Source: Rheinheimera hassiensis (GTDB taxonomy: Bacteria; Pseudomonadota; Gammaproteobacteria; Enterobacterales; Alteromonadaceae). From it: DNA of 64,000 nt. The position numbers and the translations under genes are program-made. The notes beneath the pieces were generated by a model. It saw nothing but the letters and a program-made list of their open reading frames with translations, searched no databases and was not told where the DNA came from. Location of the stretch: positions 62,001 to 126,000 of the forward strand of contig NZ_JAKUJZ010000007.1 in assembly GCF_022436675.1 (NCBI RefSeq). Reading direction: 5' to 3'. Below are positions 8,217 to 62,450 of the stretch, one piece after another (within the stretch, counting starts at the first letter, position 1; every line of letters begins with the position of its first letter).

Positions 8217-10409
8217 ATGAGTTTAGCGTTATTACAACAGGTTAGCTGTGCAGAACCCTTCTCGTTATTAGGCTGGCAACCCCTGAAAGATGACAGCAGC
8301 GCCGGCTTGTTGCTGCGGGTATATCTGCCACAGGCGACTGCTGTGAGCGCATACTCTGTTAAAACCGGTAAGTTACTGGGTGAACTGACAGCAAACAGCG
8401 ATTACCCGGGCGTATTTGAGCTGGTGCTGAGCAAAAAGCGCAAAACAGAAGCTTATCGCCTGACAGTACAAAACGGCGATTACCAGTACCCGTTGTTTGA
8501 CCCTTACCAGTTTACCGATGAAGCTTTTTACGCCGTGCACTATGTGGCTAATGAGCCGGAAAACCTGTACCGCCAGTTGGGTGCCCAGTTAATTACGCTG
8601 GATGTAGCCGGTAAAAGTGTTAATGCCGCCCGTTTTGCGGTGTTTGCGCCCGATGCCTCCAGTGTCAGCCTGATTGGTGATATGAACAGCTGGGATGGCC
8701 GGATACACCCGATGCAGCGCACATACTGTGGCCACTGGGTATTAGTGGTGCCAGAGGTGGCCGCCGGCGTGCGTTATAAATTTGAAATTAAAGACCGCAA
8801 CGGTCATTTGCTACCGCATAAGGCTGATCCTATGGCATTTTATGCCGAGCAGTATCCGTCGCATGCCTCTTTAGTATATGACCACAGCCGTTACCAGTGG
8901 CAGGACGATAGCTGGCGCAGCCGTAAACTAACCAATCCGCTTAACAGCCCGATGAGTATCTACGAGCTGCAGGCTGGCTCCTGGCGCCGCAGCGATGACA
9001 ATCAGCCACTGAGTTATCGTGAGCTGGCCGCCCAGCTTATTCCTTACATTCAGGATATGGGCTACACCCATATTGAATTGTTGCCGGTAATGGAGCATCC
9101 GTTTGATGGCTCCTGGGGCTATCAGCCGCTGGGGTTATTTGCGCCTACGTCACGCTTTGGCACACCGGATGATTTTAAGCACTTTGTTGACGCCTGCCAT
9201 CAGGCCGGTATTGGCGTTATTTTGGACTGGGTTCCGGCGCATTTCCCGGAAGACGGTCACGGCTTAGCCCGGTTCGATGGCAGCCATCTGTATGAATATG
9301 CTGATCCGCGCCGCGGCTGGCACCCGGACTGGAACTCCTGTATTTATGATTACGGCAAAGACTATGTGCGTCAGTTTCTGGTGGCCAGCGCCCTTTACTG
9401 GCTGGAGCATTTCCATATCGACGGCCTGCGCGTTGATGCCGTAGCCTCAATGCTGTATTGGGATTATTCGCGTAAAGAAGGCGAGTGGATCCCCAATGTT
9501 GATGGCGGCAACCACAACTACGAGGCGATCAGCTTTTTCCGCTGGTTTAACAGCGAGGTGTACCGCAAGTTTCCGCATACGATGACCATTGCAGAAGAAT
9601 CTACTTCGTTTCCTATGGTGTCGCGCCCGGTTGATATGGGTGGGCTGGGCTTTGGCTTTAAATGGAATATGGGCTGGATGAACGACAGCCTGCGTTATAT
9701 CAGCAAAGATCCGGCTTACCGGCGTTATCACCATAACGATCTGACGTTTTCTATGGTGTACGCTTATAACGAAAACTTTATTTTGCCGCTATCGCACGAC
9801 GAAGTGGTACACGGTAAAGGCAGTTTACTGAATAAAATGCCCGGCGATGAATGGCAGCAGGCGGCAAACCTGCGCGCTTATTACGCTTTTATGTTTGCGC
9901 ATCCGGGTAAAAAACTGAATTTTATGGGTAACGAGTTTGCTCAGGGCCGCGAGTGGAGCCATACCCAAAGCCTGGACTGGCATCTGCTGGATTATGATAA
10001 ACACCGTGGCATGCAGCAACTGCTGCGCGATTTAAACCACACCTACCGCCGCTGTGCACCGCTGTATGAACTGGATTATGCGCACGAGGGTTTCCGCTGG
10101 CTGGATCATCAGGACGCCGATAACAGTACCTTGAGTTTTTTACGCCGTGACAGCAGTGGTAATGCGGTGTATGTGGTGTCTAACTTTACCCCGCTGCCAC
10201 GTAACAACTTTTTACTGGGAGTAGAACAGGGCAGCGAGTACGAGGTTATTCTGAATACCGACAGCAGTTATTACTGGGGCAGCAACTATACAGTTGGAGC
10301 GGCCTTACACAGTATCGCCATGCCATACCATGGTTTAGCGCAGCATATTTGTCTGCAATTGCCGCCACTGGCGACACTGTATTTGCGTAAAAAGGGCCAG
10401 GCCGGTTAG
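8217..10409 (+). CDS. glgB: 1,4-alpha-glucan branching enzyme
   Basis: GH13 enzyme that cuts alpha-1,4 chains and rejoins them in alpha-1,6 linkage, making glycogen branches. 730 residues, matching the long GlgB form: an N-terminal beta domain, a CBM48 domain ('FAVFAPDASSVSLIGDMNSWDG'), then the barrel. Catalytic residues are seen in 'IDGLRVDAVASMLY' (nucleophile Asp), 'TIAEESTSFP' (acid Glu) and 'LSHDEVVHGKGS' (Asp). AAAGGACAGGCG precedes the ATG. Same strand as malQ (76-base gap) and glgX (50-base gap), so likely one transcript. Confidence 0.97.
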   Translation: MSLALLQQVSCAEPFSLLGWQPLKDDSSAGLLLRVYLPQATAVSAYSVKTGKLLGELTANSDYPGVFELVLSKKRKTEAYRLTVQNGDYQYPLFDPYQFTDEAFYAVHYVANEPENLYRQLGAQLITLDVAGKSVNAARFAVFAPDASSVSLIGDMNSWDGRIHPMQRTYCGHWVLVVPEVAAGVRYKFEIKDRNGHLLPHKADPMAFYAEQYPSHASLVYDHSRYQWQDDSWRSRKLTNPLNSPMSIYELQAGSWRRSDDNQPLSYRELAAQLIPYIQDMGYTHIELLPVMEHPFDGSWGYQPLGLFAPTSRFGTPDDFKHFVDACHQAGIGVILDWVPAHFPEDGHGLARFDGSHLYEYADPRRGWHPDWNSCIYDYGKDYVRQFLVASALYWLEHFHIDGLRVDAVASMLYWDYSRKEGEWIPNVDGGNHNYEAISFFRWFNSEVYRKFPHTMTIAEESTSFPMVSRPVDMGGLGFGFKWNMGWMNDSLRYISKDPAYRRYHHNDLTFSMVYAYNENFILPLSHDEVVHGKGSLLNKMPGDEWQQAANLRAYYAFMFAHPGKKLNFMGNEFAQGREWSHTQSLDWHLLDYDKHRGMQQLLRDLNHTYRRCAPLYELDYAHEGFRWLDHQDADNSTLSFLRRDSSGNAVYVVSNFTPLPRNNFLLGVEQGSEYEVILNTDSSYYWGSNYTVGAALHSIAMPYHGLAQHICLQLPPLATLYLRKKGQAG

Positions 10410-53070: not shown

Positions 53071-55557
53071 ATGAAAAAACATACCTCAACTGCCAATACT
53101 GGTGTAACACAAATTAACACCGAACAGCTGAAAGATCAGATAATCCGTCATCTGCATTCCACCTTAGGTACCGACGTAAATAAAGCCAGCCCACAGGCGT
53201 GGTGGCGAGCCACCTGTGCTGCGGTAAATGAGCAGGTATATGACGGTTTGCGCAATACTCAGCGCACGCATTACGAAAACAACACCCGCGCTTTACATTA
53301 TTTCAGTCTGGAATATCTGATGGGCCGTTTGTTCAGCAATAATCTGCATAATCTGGGGTTGTATGAGCAAGCTAAGCAGGCACTGTCAGATCTGGGGCTG
53401 AATATTGCTGATCTGGAAGATCAGGAAGAAGATATGGCGCTGGGTAATGGCGGCTTAGGCCGATTAGCTGCATGTTTTATTGATTCTCTGGCCACACTGA
53501 ATTATCCGGCAATTGGCTATGGCATTCATTATGAGCACGGACTATTTCAGCAAAGTTTTCAGGACGGCCGTCAGATAGAGCGGCCAGATAGCTGGCGCGA
53601 ATATGCTAACCCCTGGGAAATTTGCCGGCCGGAATCTGTGCAGGAAATTTCAGTATACGGCTATGTCGAAACAGTATATGACCTGCAGGGTAAGATGAAA
53701 AAAGTGTGGCACCCGGGACGTATTATCAAAGGTGTGCCATGGGATATCCCGATCGTTGGTTATAACGGCAGCTCAGTAAATGTATTGCGGTTATGGGAAA
53801 GCCGGGCCAGTGACTTTTTTAACTGGGACGTATTTAACTCTGGTGGTTATATCGACGCTTCACGTGAGAATATCGAAGCAGAAACTATTTCGAAAGTACT
53901 GTACCCGAATGATGAAACCGATGCAGGTAAAGAGTTACGCCTAATCCAGCAGTACTTTTTTGTTTCTTGCTCATTAAAAGACATTATTCGTCGCTACAAG
54001 CGCACTCATGCTGATGATTGGAGCGATTTTGCCAAGCAGGTGGTTATCCAGCTGAATGATACACACCCGGCAGTGTCTATTCCCGAGCTTATGCGTATTC
54101 TGGTAGACCGCGCTGAAATGCAATGGGATCAGGCCTGGAATATCTGTCAGCAGGTTTTTGCTTATACTAACCATACCCTGTTACCCGAAGCGCTGGAAAA
54201 ATGGCCGGTTCGGTTATTCGAAAAAGTATTGCCGCGCCACCTGGAAATTATCTACGAAATTAACCGGCGCTTCCTGGTTGAGCAGGTTGATGTGTTATGG
54301 CCAGGCGACAATGCTAAAAAACGTAAACTGTCAATTATCGAAGAAGGCCATGATCCTATGGTACGGATGGGCCACTTATCAGTAGTAGGGTCGTTCCGGG
54401 TCAATGGTGTGGCTGAAATTCACTCAAAACTGGTTAAGTCAGATTTATTCCCGGAAATGGTGGCCTTGTGGCCGGATAAATTTACTAATGTAACCAATGG
54501 TGTTACGCCAAGACGATGGTTAAAAGCCTGTAACCCGAAACTGGCAAAATTACTGGACGACAATATAGGCACTGAATGGCCAACTGATTTAAAGCAGTTG
54601 TCTAAATTTGCGGCCTTTGCTGATGACGCCAAAATTCAGGACGCCTTTATGGCGATTAAGCAACAGAATAAAGCTGATCTGGCAACGGTAGTGAAAAAGC
54701 TGACGCATATTGATATTGATCCGCATGCCATCTTTGATATTCAGATTAAGCGGCTGCATGAATATAAGCGTCAGCACCTGAACCTGTTGCATATATTGGC
54801 AATGTACCGCCGTATTCTGCAGGAGCCGGATTACGACATGATGCCACGCGTATTTCTGTTTGGTGCCAAGGCAGCGCCGGGTTATAAGCTAGCCAAAGAA
54901 ATTATTTATGCCATTAATAAAGTCGCTGAGAAAATTAACCACGATAAGCGAGTGAAAAACCGGTTAAAAGTGGTGTTTATGCCTAATTATCGGGTAACGC
55001 TGGCCGAGAAAATGATACCGGCTGCTGACGTATCTGAGCAAATTTCTACTGCAGGTAAAGAGGCATCAGGCACCGGTAATATGAAGCTGGCACTGAACGG
55101 CGCTATTACGGTGGGTACTTTGGATGGTGCCAATATCGAAATTGCTGAGGAAGTAGGCGATGACAATATTGCCATCTTTGGTTTAACGGTAGATGAAGTA
55201 AAGGCCTTACATGCCGATGGCTACAACAGTATGGATTATTACTATGCTAATCCGGAAATTAAAGCCATTCTGGATTGGCTGGAAACAGATTATTTCACAC
55301 CGGGTAAACCTGGCGAGTTAGCGGCCATTAAACGTAGCTTGCTGGAGGGCGGAGACCCTTATCTGGTACTGGCAGATTTTGAAAGTTATGTTAAAGCCCA
55401 GCAGAAAATAGATCAGTGGTATCGCGATAAATCACTGTGGGCTAAAAAAGCCATACTCAACACAGCCTCGGTAGGTAAGTTTACCTCTGACCGTTCTATC
55501 GAGGACTATGTCAGCCGGGTATGGCATTTGGAGAAGTGTAATATCAGACGCGATTAA
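53071..55557 (+). CDS. glgP: glycogen/maltodextrin phosphorylase
   Basis: PLP-dependent phosphorolysis of alpha-1,4-glucans, releasing glucose 1-phosphate for pgm. 828 residues. The PLP-Lys motif is '[30 protein letters not shown]'; '[16 protein letters not shown]' and '[19 protein letters not shown]' near the N terminus are typical. MalP and GlgP are hard to separate; context with pgm favours GlgP. Confidence 0.96.
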
Positions 55558-55567
55558 GCTAGTGTTG

Positions 55568-55595
55568 AAAAGCCTGTCAGTGACAGGCTTTTTTT
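55568..55595 (+). terminator. terminator after glgP
   Basis: Stem AAAAGCCTGT/ACAGGCTTTT with a CAGTG loop and a run of T. Eleven bases past the glgP stop. It separates glgP from the peptide locus. Confidence 0.9.
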
Positions 55596-55612
55596 ATGGC
55601 TGCAATATAGGC

Positions 55613-55642
55613 TTGCCAGCAAAGCCAGTAGCGCCTTATAGT
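55613..55642 (+). promoter_or_regulatory. candidate promoter of the borosin-like operon
   Basis: TTGCCA and TATAGT, each a 5 of 6 match to the sigma-70 hexamers, are separated by 18 bases. They sit just after the glgP terminator and 27 bases before the methyltransferase start, leaving a short leader with the CAAGGA ribosome site. Confidence 0.6.
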
Positions 55643-55668
55643 GAAGAAAAAATATCAAGGACGTAATT

Positions 55669-56457
55669 TTGCAAACAGGCAGTTTAGTTTGTGTTGGTAC
55701 AGGTATGACACTGGGCTCGCATATCAGCCCGCTTTCCCGCAGCTACATTGAACAGGCTGATGTGGTTTTTGTATTAGTAGCCGATGGCATCACCGAAAAG
55801 TGGATAGAGCAGATGAATACTGATGTGCGTTCACTGCAACCTTACTATCTGGAAGGCAAATCCAGGATGATCACTTATCGCGAAATGGTAGCCGCGATGC
55901 TGGCTGAAGTTAAAGCAGGCAAAAAGGTGGTTGGGGCGTTTTACGGCCATCCGGGCGTATTTGCCTGGGTGCCACACAATGCCATCAAGCAAGCTCGTGA
56001 ACTGGGTTTTACCGCCCATATGGAGCCGGGGGTTTCAGCAGAAGATTGTTTGTATGCCGATTTAGGCATCGACCCCGGCACTTACGGCTGCCAGCACTAT
56101 GAAGCCAGCCAGTTTATGTTTTATAAACGTAATATTGATACCGCTGCTTACCTGATTTTGTGGCAGGTTGGGGTAGCGGGCGACAGAACGTTGGCAAAGT
56201 TCTCAACCAATGCGGCTTACCGGCAAATACTGGTCGAGTTACTGAGTCAATATTATCCGGCAGAGCATCAGGTCATTTTGTACGAGGCTGTTACTTTACC
56301 AATTCAACAAACACGTATCGAGCAGATGCCGTTATCAGCTTTACCTGACGCGCTAATGGATTTGAAAACTACTTTAGTAATTCCCCCTGCGGCATCGATG
56401 CAACTCAACGATGCTTTGCTGGAACGTCTGGAAAAATTATCAGCAAGGCCGCAATAA
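55669..56457 (+). CDS. split-borosin alpha-N-methyltransferase (SonM-like)
   Basis: 262-residue SAM-dependent methyltransferase of the tetrapyrrole-methylase fold, from a TTG start with CAAGGA 7 bases upstream. 'LVCVGTGMTLGSHISPLSRSYIEQADVV' is the N-terminal SAM site. 'SRMITYREMV' (Arg66, Tyr70) is the catalytic Arg/Tyr region. 'GAFYGHPGVFAWVPHNAI' (90-106) and 'EPGVSAEDCLYADLGIDPG' (119-137), then 'YEASQFMFY' (144-152), closely resemble SonM, which N-methylates the peptide backbone of SonA in Shewanella oneidensis. No precursor is fused to it. Two peptide candidates lie downstream. Confidence 0.88.
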   Translation: MQTGSLVCVGTGMTLGSHISPLSRSYIEQADVVFVLVADGITEKWIEQMNTDVRSLQPYYLEGKSRMITYREMVAAMLAEVKAGKKVVGAFYGHPGVFAWVPHNAIKQARELGFTAHMEPGVSAEDCLYADLGIDPGTYGCQHYEASQFMFYKRNIDTAAYLILWQVGVAGDRTLAKFSTNAAYRQILVELLSQYYPAEHQVILYEAVTLPIQQTRIEQMPLSALPDALMDLKTTLVIPPAASMQLNDALLERLEKLSARPQ

Positions 56458-56458
56458 G

Positions 56459-57019
56459 ATGCAACAAGGTGATGCTGTTGCCAAACTACAGACTATTTGT
56501 AGCAGCTCTGCGCGATTACACATGACGTTGTTGTCTGAAGGCGATAGAACATTGTACTGTTCCCTGATGACGGATAAAGCAAGTATGAGTTATGTCAGCA
56601 GCCCATTAAGTGAAGACAAAGCTCACCGTAGCTTTGAAGCTGCACTTAAGTGCAACCAACAAAGGCATATTCAACGTTGTTATTTCAGGGTAGCTTTAAA
56701 AAGTAATAATCAGAGTATTGGTATTGCCTCTGTTAATCAGCTGGATTTGAAAAAAAAATACGCAGAAATTGGCCGGATGTTACTACCACAATGGCATAGC
56801 AAAGGCCTGGGTACAGAGCTTAGTGGCATGCTTATCTGCTGGCTGGCAGCTGAGTGGGGCATTACGACAATCACTAAACAGATCCAGGCTGGTAATCTGG
56901 CCGCAGTTTGTTCTGCTCAAAAATTAGGTTTTACTAAAGCCATATCGCAGTCCTGTCCGGCTGCATTAACAGAGCAATATCAGTTGAAATTAGCCACACG
57001 TGATTGGGAAGCGAAGTAA
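56459..57019 (+). CDS. GNAT acetyltransferase of the borosin-like operon
   Basis: 186 residues from ATG 56459, one base after the methyltransferase stop (TAAGATG), so it is translationally linked. RimJ/L-like: 'ARLHMTLLSEGDRTLYCSLMTD' near the N terminus, acetyl-CoA loop 'RMLLPQWHSKGLGTELSGMLICWL' and 'QAGNLAAVCSAQKLGFTKA' at the C-terminal side. The close pairing makes acetylation of the peptide, a self-protection step or an associated amine plausible, but the substrate is unknown. A longer ATG at 56411 lies inside the methyltransferase and is unlikely. Confidence 0.85.
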   Translation: MQQGDAVAKLQTICSSSARLHMTLLSEGDRTLYCSLMTDKASMSYVSSPLSEDKAHRSFEAALKCNQQRHIQRCYFRVALKSNNQSIGIASVNQLDLKKKYAEIGRMLLPQWHSKGLGTELSGMLICWLAAEWGITTITKQIQAGNLAAVCSAQKLGFTKAISQSCPAALTEQYQLKLATRDWEAK

Positions 57020-57091
57020 AGTTGCGTCTTTATCGGTTTCAGCTTATTTTGGCTGGGTAACACTTAAACCTAATAACAACAAGGATGGGAA

Positions 57092-57361
57092 ATGGACAAC
57101 ATTATCAGTTTAATCGCACGCTTAGGGGCAGACAGTCAACTACGCTATAACACTGAATCTGCATTTGAGCAGACTGGTTTGGTGTTATCAGAAGCCGAAA
57201 CGTTAATTAGCCAAGGCAATATTGAGGAGTTGGAAATGCTGCTCGATGTAAGGCATAAAATTGTTTGTATGGTTTTTCCTGTTGAAGAGCCTAAAGATCA
57301 ACCTAACCAACCTGCTGACGATGACGAGCCGGGTGATATGAAGGTGCGTGTAGCTGTTTGA
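57092..57361 (+). CDS. borosin-type precursor peptide, copy 1
   Basis: 89 residues; AAGGATGGGAA precedes the ATG. A leader resembling SonA ('ISLIARLGADSQLRYN', then 'LSEAETLISQGNIEELEMLL') forms helices of the borosin binding-domain kind. The C-terminal part has 'VRHKIVCMVFPVEEP' (53-67), a hydrophobic stretch suited to backbone N-methylation, followed by a Pro/Asp/Glu-rich tail and 'KVRVAV'. It matches copy 2 at V-R-x-K-[IV]-[IV]-C-x3-P-x-E-E-P. No known peptide name fits. Thirteen bases separate it from the first cyclase gene. Confidence 0.75.
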   Translation: MDNIISLIARLGADSQLRYNTESAFEQTGLVLSEAETLISQGNIEELEMLLDVRHKIVCMVFPVEEPKDQPNQPADDDEPGDMKVRVAV

Positions 57362-57374
57362 CCTGCTCAGATTT

Positions 57375-59138
57375 ATGGTCTTTTTTGTACGGCAAATATT
57401 TTGGGGGGCAATATTCTTGCTTGCCCCTAATTTTCTTTATGCGACAGAACCTCCTCCTGAGAAAGGCTATTTGCCTCAGCTTGAGAAAGTTGATGATTTA
57501 AGACTATCAAATTTTAAAGCCTTTCAGCATGAACTAAAGAGACTAGATGAATATAGCTCCAGGTTTGATGCAGATGAATCTGATTACCTGAACTTACTAA
57601 AGGCCAGCGAAGCAACATTGCTTAGCAATTATCATGAAACGCCAGCCTTGCTACAAAACCTGCTGTATCGTCCTGCGAATGATGTGCTTCGGATCCGAGC
57701 TCTGGCATTGTTGGTAAATTCTTATGTTCTTGCTCAGAACTACGCTAATGCTTTTGAGTATTTTGAAATTTTATTGACAGAAGGACATCAGCTAACTGAC
57801 GAAAAAGCACTGGTGCAACGTCTTGGCGTAATTGCGCTGCTATACATTAAGTTAGAAAAGTTTGATCTAGCCCAGTATTACTTGCGAGATATCCACTCCT
57901 TAGCTTTATCGGACATCAACCTTTGTCGTTTGTATACCCAAAAAATTGAAGCAATGTCTGCTCAGGCTAAACAGCAGGATTTTGATAAAGAATCTGAGTT
58001 TGGTTTTAGTCTTTGTCAGCGTACCGGTGAGAAAATAGCGGCTGGTTTTATTATTGCCGAAATCGTTCGTTACAATGTTAATCAAAAGCACTTTGCAGTT
58101 GCAATAAACAGCTATGAAAACTATCGCGAAACACTTAATACAACAAATTACTCTTTTCTTGTAGCCAAGGTAAATGCGTTAGTATCACAAGCCTACTTTG
58201 CTGAGAACGACATGTCAAAAGCAGAGTCTTTGGCAAAAGAAGCGCTGCTATTTTCAGATACTCACCCTTTTAGTTTGCCTGTTATTTTGGCTGCTAAGTC
58301 GCTGTATGAAATAGCTAAATATCAAAAAAAATTTCAAGAATCACTAAAATATCTTGAGTTATTAAACGCAGCTAAAACGTCGTATGAAAAAGAGTTATCT
58401 TCACAGCTTCTGGCTTATCACCTGGCTCGGGGAGAAATTGAAGTGAAGAATCAACGTATAGCGCTGTTAGATAAAGACAACGAGTTACTATCATTACAAA
58501 GAAACATATACGCGCAAGAGGTTCGGCAGCACAGGTTACTTATGTTGTTGCTATTTGTCGTGCTGCTTATCGCTAGTTTTATAGCCTATCGAGGCATGTC
58601 CGGTCGTAAACGCTTTAAAAAAATTGCTGAGTTTGACCAATTAACCGGTATCAGTAACCGTTATCATTTTAACAATTTGGCTAAAGTTGCACTGGATTAC
58701 TGCGAGCTTAACGCTAAACCCGCTGCACTAATCCTGTTTGACCTGGATTACTTTAAAACTATCAATGACAACTACGGCCATGCTATCGGAGATTGGGCAC
58801 TGCAACAGGTGGTAAAAACCTGTCGTAATTTTATGCGCAATAATGATGTATTTGGCCGTATTGGCGGGGAAGAGTTTGCTGTGGTGTTGCCGGGCTGCCA
58901 TGCCGATAAAGCCGCATTACTGGCAGAGATATGCCGTGATGCTATTTCTACTATAGATACGACAGAAAGTGGTTATACGTTCCCGATTAGTGCCAGTTTT
59001 GGTGTCAGCTCTTCCGATATATCGGGCTATCAGCTTAAACAGTTGTTAGCTGATGCAGATCTGGCAATGTACAGAGCCAAGCAATCAGGACGGGATCAGA
59101 TTGCAACTTATACTCACCTTATAGATAAAGCGGACTAA
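57375..59138 (+). CDS. periplasmic-sensor diguanylate cyclase, module 1
   Basis: 587 residues. A signal peptide (about 1-24) is followed by a long helical, TPR-like periplasmic sensor (about 30-370), a short coiled coil ('IALLDKDNELLSLQRN'), one membrane helix (about 388-405) and a cytoplasmic GGDEF domain. The active site is GGEEF at 497-501 and the inhibitory I-site RxxD (RNND) at 488-491, so the enzyme should make and be feedback-inhibited by c-di-GMP. The sensor half is more A+T-rich by eye. Placement right behind a precursor gene suggests it senses or is regulated by the peptide (inference). Confidence 0.88.
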   Translation: MVFFVRQIFWGAIFLLAPNFLYATEPPPEKGYLPQLEKVDDLRLSNFKAFQHELKRLDEYSSRFDADESDYLNLLKASEATLLSNYHETPALLQNLLYRPANDVLRIRALALLVNSYVLAQNYANAFEYFEILLTEGHQLTDEKALVQRLGVIALLYIKLEKFDLAQYYLRDIHSLALSDINLCRLYTQKIEAMSAQAKQQDFDKESEFGFSLCQRTGEKIAAGFIIAEIVRYNVNQKHFAVAINSYENYRETLNTTNYSFLVAKVNALVSQAYFAENDMSKAESLAKEALLFSDTHPFSLPVILAAKSLYEIAKYQKKFQESLKYLELLNAAKTSYEKELSSQLLAYHLARGEIEVKNQRIALLDKDNELLSLQRNIYAQEVRQHRLLMLLLFVVLLIASFIAYRGMSGRKRFKKIAEFDQLTGISNRYHFNNLAKVALDYCELNAKPAALILFDLDYFKTINDNYGHAIGDWALQQVVKTCRNFMRNNDVFGRIGGEEFAVVLPGCHADKAALLAEICRDAISTIDTTESGYTFPISASFGVSSSDISGYQLKQLLADADLAMYRAKQSGRDQIATYTHLIDKAD

Positions 59139-59179
59139 AAATTTATTGTCGTTGTGTATTATAACGTTACTGTAGTAGT

Positions 59180-59193
59180 TGTAATTCTTTACA
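59180..59193. promoter_or_regulatory. inverted repeat upstream of precursor 2
   Basis: TGTAA-N4-TTACA, 81 bases upstream of the second precursor ATG, in the 135-base gap after the first cyclase. It resembles the HexR operator but is one base shorter, so its regulator is unknown. The gap may carry an internal promoter. Confidence 0.3.
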
Positions 59194-59273
59194 GCCGGGT
59201 GCAGGATGGTACTTAAATTCTGATTTAATTTAAAACCTTTCACTGTGATATAACAATTATACAGGGACTAACA

Positions 59274-59549
59274 ATGAATAAAGTAATTAGCTTGCTTGAA
59301 ACTTTGGGGCAGAATGCTGCGTTACAGAGCCTGGATACTGCAGCTTTACAAAAAGTATTTAACCCGTTGGATATGGATGTTCAGGTGCAGCAGGCTATCT
59401 TGAGCAGGGATCACGTTCAGTTAGAAGCCTTATTACAAGTGCGGAACAAAGTGATATGTGCAATTTGCCCCGCAGAAGAACCGCCACAAGATGTGCCAGA
59501 GAATGACGACGAGACTGAGGAAAAGTCATCGGTTGCCGCTAACTTTTAG
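59274..59549 (+). CDS. borosin-type precursor peptide, copy 2
   Basis: 91 residues; ACAGGGACTAACA precedes the ATG. Leader 'VISLLETLGQNAALQSL' parallels copy 1, followed by 'VQQAILSRDHVQLEALLQ'. The core-like segment is 'VRNKVICAICPAEEP' (57-71), with an extra Cys where copy 1 has Phe, then an acidic tail ending 'KSSVAANF'. Divergence in the leader with retention of the core motif points to selection on the motif. The end overlaps the second cyclase in another frame if that gene starts at 59503. Confidence 0.75.
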   Translation: MNKVISLLETLGQNAALQSLDTAALQKVFNPLDMDVQVQQAILSRDHVQLEALLQVRNKVICAICPAEEPPQDVPENDDETEEKSSVAANF

Positions 59550-61296
59550 ATTGGCTCAGCCACTGCTAATTAAACTTATAAAACCAGCATTGATAATCTT
59601 TGCTGGTTTTGTTGCTATTGCACCAGCCAGTGAAATGACCGAGCGACTGGACGCATTGGATGATCTTAAAGTCGTTAATGTAGCGCAGTTCAGTGAAAAA
59701 CTGGCAGTTATTGCTGAAAACGCCGGGAAGCTGACACAGTATGAATACGACTATTTAGAGTTACTGCAAAGCTATGAAATGTCGCTGCGTGGTGATTTCG
59801 ACGGAGCAGCAGCGTTGCTGGAGTCAATGCTAGCCCGTGATACTGAACCGGAAATTGTTTTTCGGGTTAAAGCACTGTTGGTGAATGTGTTTGCAGTAAC
59901 CAGAAATTACCGCAATGCGTTTTCTTATCTTGAACAAATAAGCCGTGAAGTTCAGTCTGTAACATCAACCCGGGCAAAAGAGCACGGCCTGAGCGTACTG
60001 GCTTATACTTATAATCAGCTGTCAGAGTTTGATATTGCCAGGTTTTATGCTCAGGTATTGATCGATAGCGCAACATCAGAAAAAACACTGTGTCATGCCA
60101 GACATCATTTAATCGAATCGTTGTATGGGTTAGGGCAATGGGAGCTTTTCAGCACTATGGTGGAATCATCAGTAAGCCATTGTGTTGATAACCGGGAGCT
60201 GATTTTTGCTAACCTTATCCGCCTTAAATACTTTAACTATTTATTACAGACAGAACAGTACCGGCAGGCTGACAAGTATTATGATTCATTCATAGATTCA
60301 GTTACTAAAACAAATTACCCATTTCTGCTGGCAGGAGTTTTAGGAGCAGGAGCGCAAAACAGTCTGGCCCTGGCAGAATACAACATTGCAGAAGAGCGGG
60401 CTAATCGCACCTTACAGCACTCGGGCGCTTCAGAGTTTAGCTTACCGGTGTTAAATGCTTATTATGTGTTATACCAGGTTAACTATACACGGCAAAATTT
60501 CAATAAGGCATTGGAATATCATGTAAAGTATACTTCTGCTCTAAAAGCGAATAGCGATGACCGCTTTGTAAGACAACAAGCCTATCACGTTGCTAAAGCG
60601 GAAATAGAAGTGAAAGATCAGCGCTTAGCCTTACTCGATAAAGATAACGAATTACTTTTTTTACAAAAAAACCTGTATCAGCAAGAAGTAAAACAAAACC
60701 GCCTTATTATGCTGTTGCTACTGCTAATTGTAGCTTTGGCCAGTTTTATGGCATACCGCGGTATGTCCGGGCGTAGTCGCTTTAAAAAAATTGCCGAATA
60801 TGATCAGTTAACCGGTATTAGTAACCGTTATCACTTTAACAACCAGGCCAGAGTAGCGCTGGACTATTGTGAGCTGGATGCCAAACCTGCAGCACTGATT
60901 TTATTTGACCTGGATCACTTTAAAAATATAAACGATCGATGCGGCCACGCCACAGGCGATTGGGCACTGCAGCAGGTGGTAAAAACCTGCCGTAATTTTA
61001 TGCGCAATAATGATGTATTTGGCCGCATTGGCGGGGAAGAGTTTGCTGTCGTGTTGCCGGGTTGCCATGCGGATAAAGCTGCATTGATGGCCGAGATATG
61101 CCGTGATGCCATTGCCACTATAGATACTAAAGCCAGCGGTTGTACGTTTCCTCTTAGTGCCAGTTTTGGTGTCAGCTCTTCCGATACGTCTGGCTATCAG
61201 CTTAAACAGCTACTGGCTGATGCTGATCTGGCAATGTACAAAGCGAAGCAGTCCGGGCGGGATCAGGTATCAATGTATACAGAAGAGCTGGGCTGA
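59503..61296 (+). CDS. periplasmic-sensor diguanylate cyclase, module 2
   Basis: 597 residues if it starts at ATG 59503; GTG 59458, TTG 59533 and TTG 59551 are alternatives, so the exact start is open. A signal peptide ('KPALIIFAGFVAIAPASE'), a TPR-like periplasmic sensor, a coiled coil and one membrane helix precede the GGDEF domain. GGEEF is at 510-514 and RNND upstream is the I-site. It is a paralogue of module 1: the sensor halves are clearly diverged, whereas the GGDEF halves share long identical DNA blocks. It overlaps precursor 2. Confidence 0.87.
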   Translation: MTTRLRKSHRLPLTFRLAQPLLIKLIKPALIIFAGFVAIAPASEMTERLDALDDLKVVNVAQFSEKLAVIAENAGKLTQYEYDYLELLQSYEMSLRGDFDGAAALLESMLARDTEPEIVFRVKALLVNVFAVTRNYRNAFSYLEQISREVQSVTSTRAKEHGLSVLAYTYNQLSEFDIARFYAQVLIDSATSEKTLCHARHHLIESLYGLGQWELFSTMVESSVSHCVDNRELIFANLIRLKYFNYLLQTEQYRQADKYYDSFIDSVTKTNYPFLLAGVLGAGAQNSLALAEYNIAEERANRTLQHSGASEFSLPVLNAYYVLYQVNYTRQNFNKALEYHVKYTSALKANSDDRFVRQQAYHVAKAEIEVKDQRLALLDKDNELLFLQKNLYQQEVKQNRLIMLLLLLIVALASFMAYRGMSGRSRFKKIAEYDQLTGISNRYHFNNQARVALDYCELDAKPAALILFDLDHFKNINDRCGHATGDWALQQVVKTCRNFMRNNDVFGRIGGEEFAVVLPGCHADKAALMAEICRDAIATIDTKASGCTFPLSASFGVSSSDTSGYQLKQLLADADLAMYKAKQSGRDQVSMYTEELG

Positions 61297-61379
61297 TTTA
61301 CTGTGTCACAAGCGTCAGGTTTGGCTGAGTGCGTTAACTGCGGTAGAATCAGTGCATTATGACAACCCGGAGCTGGCGC

Positions 61380-62450
61380 ATGGCGCAACTATCTACCCAA
61401 CACGTCCAACTGCTGCAACATGGCGATTTTTTGCAACTCACTCTTTCAAACCCTGATGGCTTGCCATCATCACAGTTTTCATTACCTGATGGCACAGCGG
61501 TCAGGATTTTCGATACAGGCGTAATATGTTTTGAGCCGGCACTTTGTGAAAGCAATACCAAAGATATCGTTCTGTCCTGTGGCGTACACGGCAATGAAAC
61601 GGCGCCGATAGAGATTTGCGCTGAGCTGGTAAAAGACCTGCTAACCGGCCAACTTCAACTTAAACATCGCTTGTTAGTGCTGTTTGGCAACCCTGCCGCG
61701 ATAAATGCCGGTACACGCGAAATTATCGAAAACCTAAACAGGCTATTTTCCGGTCACCATAGCATGGGCGCGGGCCTGATTAACGCTGAGCGTAAGCGCG
61801 CTAAGGCGTTGGAAGAGTACGTCAGTCGTTTCTATCAAGAGATACGCGTAACCAGTGCGGTGCCGCGTAACCGTTATTTATATGATTTACACACTGCTAT
61901 CCGTGGCTCCCGTTTTGAAAAATTTGCCGTGTATCCGTTCTTGCATAATAAGCCGTGGCAAAAGGCCGAGTTTGAGTTTTTACAGGCCTGTGATGTCACG
62001 ACAGTGCTGTTAATGCAAACGCCGGCGTCTACCTTCAGTTACTACGCGTCTAACAGCCATGGTGCCGATGCCTTTACCATTGAGCTGGGCAAGGTAAAGC
62101 CGTTTGGCCAGAACGATATGCAACGTTTTGCCAAAGCGCGTGCTGCGCTGCGCCAATTGGTTGGCGAAGACGCGGTGAGCACAGTTCATTTTGACGAGCA
62201 GCAATTTCAGCTGTATCAAGTGTATCGCGCGATCAATAAACAAACGCAGGAGTTTAAACTGCACTTTGCGGATGATGTAGAAAATTTTACTGCTTATCCG
62301 CAAGGCACCTTGCTGGCGACAGACGGTGATATTGAGTACAGAGTAGAGCGCGAAGGTGAAGCCATTATTTTCCCCAATGCCAAAGTGGCCATAGGTCAGC
62401 GCGCTATGCTGATGGTGGTGCCCACTACGGTGGCGCACAATATCGCTTAA
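61380..62450 (+). CDS. astE: succinylglutamate desuccinylase
   Basis: Last enzyme of the arginine succinyltransferase pathway, releasing glutamate and succinate from N2-succinylglutamate. 356 residues from ATG 61380, supported by CGGAG 7 bases upstream over the ATG at 61359. Zinc motif 'CGVHGNETAPIEI' (His, Glu), 'GNPAAINAGTREIIENLNRLF' and third ligand region 'LYDLHTAIRGSRFEKFAVYP' are present. The other ast genes are not in the window. Confidence 0.93.
   Translation: MAQLSTQHVQLLQHGDFLQLTLSNPDGLPSSQFSLPDGTAVRIFDTGVICFEPALCESNTKDIVLSCGVHGNETAPIEICAELVKDLLTGQLQLKHRLLVLFGNPAAINAGTREIIENLNRLFSGHHSMGAGLINAERKRAKALEEYVSRFYQEIRVTSAVPRNRYLYDLHTAIRGSRFEKFAVYPFLHNKPWQKAEFEFLQACDVTTVLLMQTPASTFSYYASNSHGADAFTIELGKVKPFGQNDMQRFAKARAALRQLVGEDAVSTVHFDEQQFQLYQVYRAINKQTQEFKLHFADDVENFTAYPQGTLLATDGDIEYRVEREGEAIIFPNAKVAIGQRAMLMVVPTTVAHNIA

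Follow-up and report, generated by a model that had tools for sequence, protein, structure and literature searches.

Split-Borosin Genes Paired with TPR-GGDEF Sensor Cyclases in Rheinheimera hassiensis: A Candidate Peptide-Sensing System

Organization of the Locus

The DNA considered here (the window) comprises 64,000 nucleotides (nt) of Rheinheimera hassiensis (contig NZ_JAKUJZ010000007.1, positions 62,001 to 126,000). Between glgP and astE it harbors a tightly packed array of six genes, all on the + strand, for a SonM-type peptide backbone N-methyltransferase, a GNAT acetyltransferase, and two successive pairs of a SonA-type precursor and a sensor cyclase made of a tetratricopeptide repeat (TPR) ectodomain and a GGDEF domain (Table 1). 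An earlier note on this DNA had listed all six genes in this order and had called them fused; the order is correct, and the genes are adjacent only. The likely start of the GNAT gene, ATG 56459, is 1 nt past the methyltransferase stop and was preferred over the start of the open frame at 56411, and 13 nt separate precursor 1 from cyclase 1. For cyclase 2, the listed GTG start at 59458 falls within precursor 2, ATG 59503 or TTG 59551 being likelier. The array is probably an operon of its own, because an inverted repeat followed by a run of T is found 3' of glgP. In a scan for promoter and terminator consensus sequences, the number of sites was not above that in shuffled sequence.

Table 1. Features of the six-gene array and its flanks (window coordinates; TM, transmembrane; aa, amino acids; pLDDT, predicted local distance difference test).
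Feature	Position	Strand	Basis or remark
glgP	53071-55557		left flank of the array
Inverted repeat and T run, terminator-like, 3' of glgP	55568..55592	+	sequence; missing from the consensus-scan list
SonM-type peptide backbone N-methyltransferase, TTG start	55669..56457	+	SonM homology, PF00590, key residues
GNAT acetyltransferase (likely start)	56459..57019	+	Acetyltransf_3, 1e-16
Precursor 1, SonA-type, 89 aa	57092..57361	+	profile match to SonA; relatives in 79/80 loci
Predicted core of precursor 1, IVCMVFPVEEP	57260..57292	+	alignment; extent inferred
Block exchanged between strains (most of precursor 1 and ectodomain 1)	57141..58580	+	nucleotide identity to L002
Cyclase 1: N-terminal hydrophobic segment, TPR ectodomain, one TM helix (residue 385), GGDEF	57375..59138	+	PF00990, 1.9e-41
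GGDEF domain of cyclase 1	58626..59099	+	Pfam match
Precursor 2, SonA-type, 91 aa	59274..59549	+	first row of the SonA-hitting profile; five-helix model
Predicted core of precursor 2, VICAICPAEEP (C62 and P66 nearly invariant)	59451..59483	+	alignment; extent inferred
Cyclase 2: signal helix, TPR ectodomain, one TM helix, GGDEF	59503..61296	+	PF00990, 1.3e-42; model pLDDT 93.3
GGDEF domain of cyclase 2	60793..61266	+	Pfam match
astE	61359-62450		right flank of the array

Methyltransferase and Precursors

The methyltransferase and the precursors are almost certainly genes of the SonM/SonA type. SonM and SonA form a type IV split borosin of Shewanella oneidensis, in which the methyltransferase stands alone and the precursor is a protein of its own, made of a five-helix binding domain and a C-terminal core (PMC8429565). 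In a search of PDB chains, the window methyltransferase matched SonM (E value 5.1e-85) as well as fungal OphMA chains (about 1e-48), and it contains PF00590 (6.9e-20). Residues Y58, R67, Y71, Y93, F99, and W166 of SonM, treated in the same work as active-site or lock residues (PMC8429565), are identical in the window enzyme (6/6). A stand-alone SonM homologue that keeps the discussed residues is accompanied by separate precursors with an N-terminal borosin-binding domain and a C-terminal core, as in a split borosin. Single-sequence PDB searches with each precursor returned no borosin chain (one gave a chance row at E 0.6, the other was empty), and a profile built from 61 precursor relatives reached the SonA chains at 1.8e-6, with the best non-SonA row at 0.35. 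The two precursors are 30% identical to each other, the model of precursor 2 has five helices, and the alignment reveals a nearly invariant cysteine and an acidic tail. Over the whole precursor gene, nonsynonymous divergence (dN) is far below synonymous divergence (dS) in all five comparisons with estimable dS, while dS is saturated in a sixth. Like the recurrence at related loci described below, this points to more than a chance arrangement. The SonM homologue is likely to N-methylate the backbone of the precursors. Unlike SonM/SonA, the window system has two precursors for one methyltransferase, a GNAT gene in the array, and a Cys...Pro-Ala/Val-Glu core with an acidic tail.

A near-copy of the SonM/SonA locus itself has the same neighbor. 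At L160, the methyltransferase matches SonM end to end (1.5e-167), the 71-aa precursor matches SonA across all 71 residues, 62 of them identical (2.4e-38), and a TPR-GGDEF gene begins 1 nt after the SonA-like gene. The type of split borosin for which biochemical proof exists is therefore found with this partner as well. The earlier note knew of no description of such an arrangement. Two points correct this picture: the arrangement is widespread, as this near-copy, the distribution and the loci with three pairs reported below indicate, and the legend of a figure on borosin architectures names a GGDEF domain (Figure 1 of PMC11395268). The window resembles that architecture in having GGDEF in a borosin context, and this published mention limits the novelty of the arrangement. 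Our literature search retrieved no paper joining borosins to diguanylate cyclases or tetratricopeptides, a prior TPR or kinase report being possible, and none joining backbone N-methylation to diguanylate cyclases; borosins and histidine kinases were co-mentioned only where the terms were unrelated.

Sensor Cyclases

Both cyclases have a GGDEF domain (PF00990) with a GG[DE]EF active-site motif, here GGEEF, preceded by RxxD at a distance of five residues (RNND-x5-GGEEF). From these motifs, the domain appears active and the RxxD I-site-like. The TPR ectodomain is predicted to be periplasmic and anchored in the membrane. Among the 52 GGDEF matches of the window genome, this ectodomain is present in only two, cyclases 1 and 2. 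A coupling between the precursor cysteine and a cysteine pair of the ectodomain was considered and rejected, since the pair is constant (154/154 sensors keep both cysteines) while 44 of the 154 paired precursors have no cysteine after residue 45.

Conservation of the Precursor-Cyclase Pair

When the contigs of public genome records were scanned with the window methyltransferase, 94 relatives emerged, and the 80 best were retained. The TPR-GGDEF family of the window is present at all 80 loci (full-length in 79, cut by the contig end in L043), and at least one precursor at 79, L035 having none, so that the co-occurrence that the earlier note proposed to look for extends beyond the window strain. 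The genera include Rheinheimera, Arsukibacterium, Alkalimonas, Shewanella, Colwellia, Thalassomonas, Alteromonas, Rhodanobacter, Dyella, Lysobacter, and Povalibacter. A cyclase of the family starts at most 500 nt downstream for 95 of 110 precursors and at most 50 nt downstream for 86 of them. A precursor is located immediately 5' of the cyclase in 92/102 cases, and some of the 10 misses resemble over-extended reading frames. Two or three complete pairs occur at 12 of the 80 loci, with three at 4 of those 12. A GNAT-like gene is found at 70/80 of these closest loci versus 34/100 in the wider sample described below.

Some loci depart from the common layout. L011, L012, and L015 have, near 9673-9678, an extra gene for an 87-aa precursor-like protein directly 5' of the methyltransferase gene, with no cyclase of its own. 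Upstream of its full cluster, L026 (6901-8500) has what is probably a decayed duplicate, consisting of a second methyltransferase cut down to 139 aa together with a precursor-like and a GNAT gene. The methyltransferases of L050, L051, and L058, next to a precursor and a TPR-GGDEF gene, are 452-485 aa long, possibly a fused architecture.

Exchange of Precursor and Ectodomain as a Cassette

Relative to L002 (R. oceanensis), nucleotide identity is 90% for glgP, 89% for the methyltransferase gene, and 88% for the GNAT gene; it is 54% for precursor 1 and 46% for ectodomain 1, and again 85% for the TM-GGDEF part and 81-86% for module 2. Identity is 35-60% inside the exchanged stretch versus 73-97% on either side, with intermediate values of 60-68% from 58341, and the boundaries fall near 57141, inside precursor 1, and near 58580, at the membrane helix. 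Similarly, identity in L007 and L038 falls to 44-46% for the precursor and 45-46% for the ectodomain and is 84-87% for the TM-GGDEF part, the GNAT gene being replaced as well. Module-1 ectodomains of five strains form three unrelated alleles (protein distance 0.67-0.68), whereas their GGDEF domains are 0.02-0.05 apart. Because the distance of these GGDEF domains to module 2 of the same locus is larger (0.10-0.15), a recent homogenization between the GGDEF domains of one locus was rejected at the five loci compared.

The distances of precursors and ectodomains are correlated (r = 0.90 over 141 pairs with a GGDEF distance below 0.15). In a test on multi-module loci (13 loci and 30 modules, window included), in which between-locus correlations were compared with within-locus shuffling, the precursor-ectodomain correlation was 0.926 versus a shuffled mean of 0.50 (0/1000 as high), and that with GGDEF 0.699 versus 0.63 (1/1000 as high). 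With GGDEF controlled for, precursor and ectodomain retain a partial correlation of 0.59 over all 154 pairs, versus 0.15 for precursor and GGDEF with the ectodomain controlled for; the short core alone gives 0.38 with the ectodomain and 0.30 with GGDEF. Precursor and ectodomain thus move between strains as a single unit, a finding that stops short of physical contact.

Such covariation might arise if precursor and cyclase were mere linked neighbors in an operon, traveling together by position without interacting. Linkage does contribute, because the methyltransferase-binding part of the precursor alone tracks the ectodomain nearly as well as the whole precursor does (r 0.903 versus 0.926), as expected from plain linkage. 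Yet the pairing is kept across many genera although glgP and astE flank only 20/80 and 24/80 of the loci, and the stretch exchanged in L002 has one end within precursor 1 and the other at the membrane helix, which makes this the least probable of the explanations considered.

Variation of the Output Domain

The wider sample comprised 394 genomes from the order, in which a methyltransferase cut-off of 1e-20 yielded 138 matches in 91 genomes; 100 regions containing 105 of these matches were examined. The ectodomain is accompanied by GGDEF at 72 of these loci and has no in-frame GGDEF at 12; 14 were classed as a kinase type, where a weak ectodomain match (31-82 bits) might reflect a general likeness among TPR proteins, and 2 have neither. 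Pfam kinase domains were found at 13 of the 14 kinase-type loci, L197 being outside the scan. Among the 12 loci, L137 ends at a contig edge and L175 has a separate GGDEF fragment, while at L147, L149, L151, L154, L157, L180, and L211 the cyclase is replaced by a tandem pair of stand-alone TPR proteins of 352-368 aa with an N-terminal hydrophobic segment, in genomes of 2.5-2.9 Mb. At L127 (7847-9003), two precursor genes are followed only by a 42-aa GGDEF fragment, as if the cluster were losing its cyclase. A sensor gene starts at most 1.5 kb downstream of the methyltransferase gene, on the same strand, at 88/100 loci. As more distant loci have a TPR protein with a histidine kinase or alone, it is apparently the TPR sensor, and not GGDEF, that the methyltransferase keeps as its constant partner.

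The reverse search of the same 394 genomes, with the cyclase 2 ectodomain devoid of GGDEF, gave 71 matches in 58 genomes, 65 of them within 6 kb of a methyltransferase match. The methyltransferase is present in 55/58 ectodomain-positive genomes versus 36/336 negative ones (Fisher p 7e-39, a value that ignores shared ancestry).

These data bear on the direction of the relationship. The cyclase might regulate the peptide, with the TPR domain sensing some other outside cue and cyclic di-GMP (c-di-GMP) switching peptide expression, maturation, or release. The constant gene order and tight spacing would fit such co-regulation, as would the active-looking GGDEF domain with its I-site-like RxxD. This is nevertheless unlikely, as the TPR protein remains next to the methyltransferase when the output becomes a histidine kinase or no enzyme domain is present, and as each precursor has its own type of ectodomain, which a common outside cue would make needless.

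A Candidate Peptide-Sensing Pathway

We favor, with a probability of roughly 60%, a scheme in which the mature, probably N-methylated peptide binds as a ligand to the TPR domain, predicted to be periplasmic, and thereby sets the c-di-GMP output, one methyltransferase serving two peptide-receptor modules. The direction from peptide to sensor is preferred since the conserved partner has, by prediction, a periplasmic TPR ectodomain and an output domain that varies. The methyltransferase would bind the five-helix N-terminal domain of the precursor and methylate the hydrophobic stretch ahead of the conserved proline, and the GNAT enzyme might acylate the peptide or the precursor. A protease would then release the peptide; in Shewanella and other genera this is probably the pepsin-like aspartic protease whose gene precedes that of the methyltransferase, while the window genome would use another. 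Having reached the periplasm, the peptide would bind the TPR superhelix, and the signal would run along one long transmembrane helix to GGDEF. The split-borosin identity and the two precursor-cyclase pairs claimed in the earlier note are upheld by homology, conservation, and cassette exchange; its suggested link between peptide and c-di-GMP is supported by the same lines, the direction left open there being better read as peptide acting on sensor.

The structure search, which used the whole cyclase model as query, was dominated by GGDEF matches; among the others, the ectodomain best resembles the Rap/NprR peptide-pheromone receptors (RRNPP family) of Gram-positive bacteria, with a TPR superhelix of similar size. 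Rap and NprR are soluble cytoplasmic receptors with no membrane anchor. In contrast, the window TPR domain is predicted to be periplasmic, membrane-anchored, and joined to GGDEF, so that it would at most work in an RRNPP-like manner and is not a member.

Alternatively, the peptide might be secreted to serve some other purpose, for instance as a metal ligand or antimicrobial, and the TPR cyclase would sense its loaded or returning form as feedback. The nearly invariant cysteine and the acidic tail of the precursors speak for this, as does the first study of a type IV borosin system in metal-respiring Shewanella. However, the 44 paired precursors with no cysteine after residue 45 do not fit, and the conserved neighbors included no conspicuous gene for uptake, export, or immunity, making this quite improbable, more so than regulation of the peptide by the cyclase.

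Several observations weigh against the peptide as ligand of the TPR domain. Methylation, export, binding, and c-di-GMP control are steps that we infer, and part of the covariation comes from linkage, as described above. Precursors were detected at just 72/100 of the wider loci and, by profile, at 1 of the 14 kinase-type loci, whose ectodomain matches are weak. Six ectodomain matches of the reverse search (L237-L242, TPR-GGDEF) are possible solo receptors, as their flanks of about 5 kb yielded neither a precursor nor a methyltransferase. A search of the window genome for a pepsin-like protease detected none, with a model that was positive in 8/20 genomes, and none of the 25 largest neighbor families listed, not all of them identified, stood out as an exporter. 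Finally, TPR folds are broadly alike.

If this pathway operates, peptides so far without an assigned function would gain one as signals read by a sensor, and a modified-peptide route into c-di-GMP control would be added. With the conserved receptor-like partner, a concrete function can be proposed whose output, c-di-GMP, is measurable, and the natural cassette alleles are ready-made tests of specificity. More speculatively, and with somewhat less than even confidence, the loci might represent a Gram-negative pheromone family, in which backbone-N-methylated peptides, periplasmic TPR receptors with interchangeable outputs (c-di-GMP, histidine kinase, or none), and matched, pherotype-like cassettes would form a self-recognition code for biofilm-type decisions.

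Candidate Maturation Protease

Bacterial pepsins such as shewasin D and shewasin A have counterparts upstream of methyltransferases related to that of the window, whose genome has none detected. At 44/180 loci, the methyltransferase gene is preceded on the same strand by one for a pepsin-like aspartic protease, and PF00026 was found in 5/5 of those scanned. In the 8 of 20 genomes with PF00026, the gene is at most about 2.5 kb from the methyltransferase gene in six; the same model had no match in any of 14 control genomes. A borosin precursor is reportedly a substrate cut by shewasin A, a result attributed to Lee in 2024. Shewasin D is mainly cytoplasmic (PMC4814920), which fits maturation of the peptide ahead of export.

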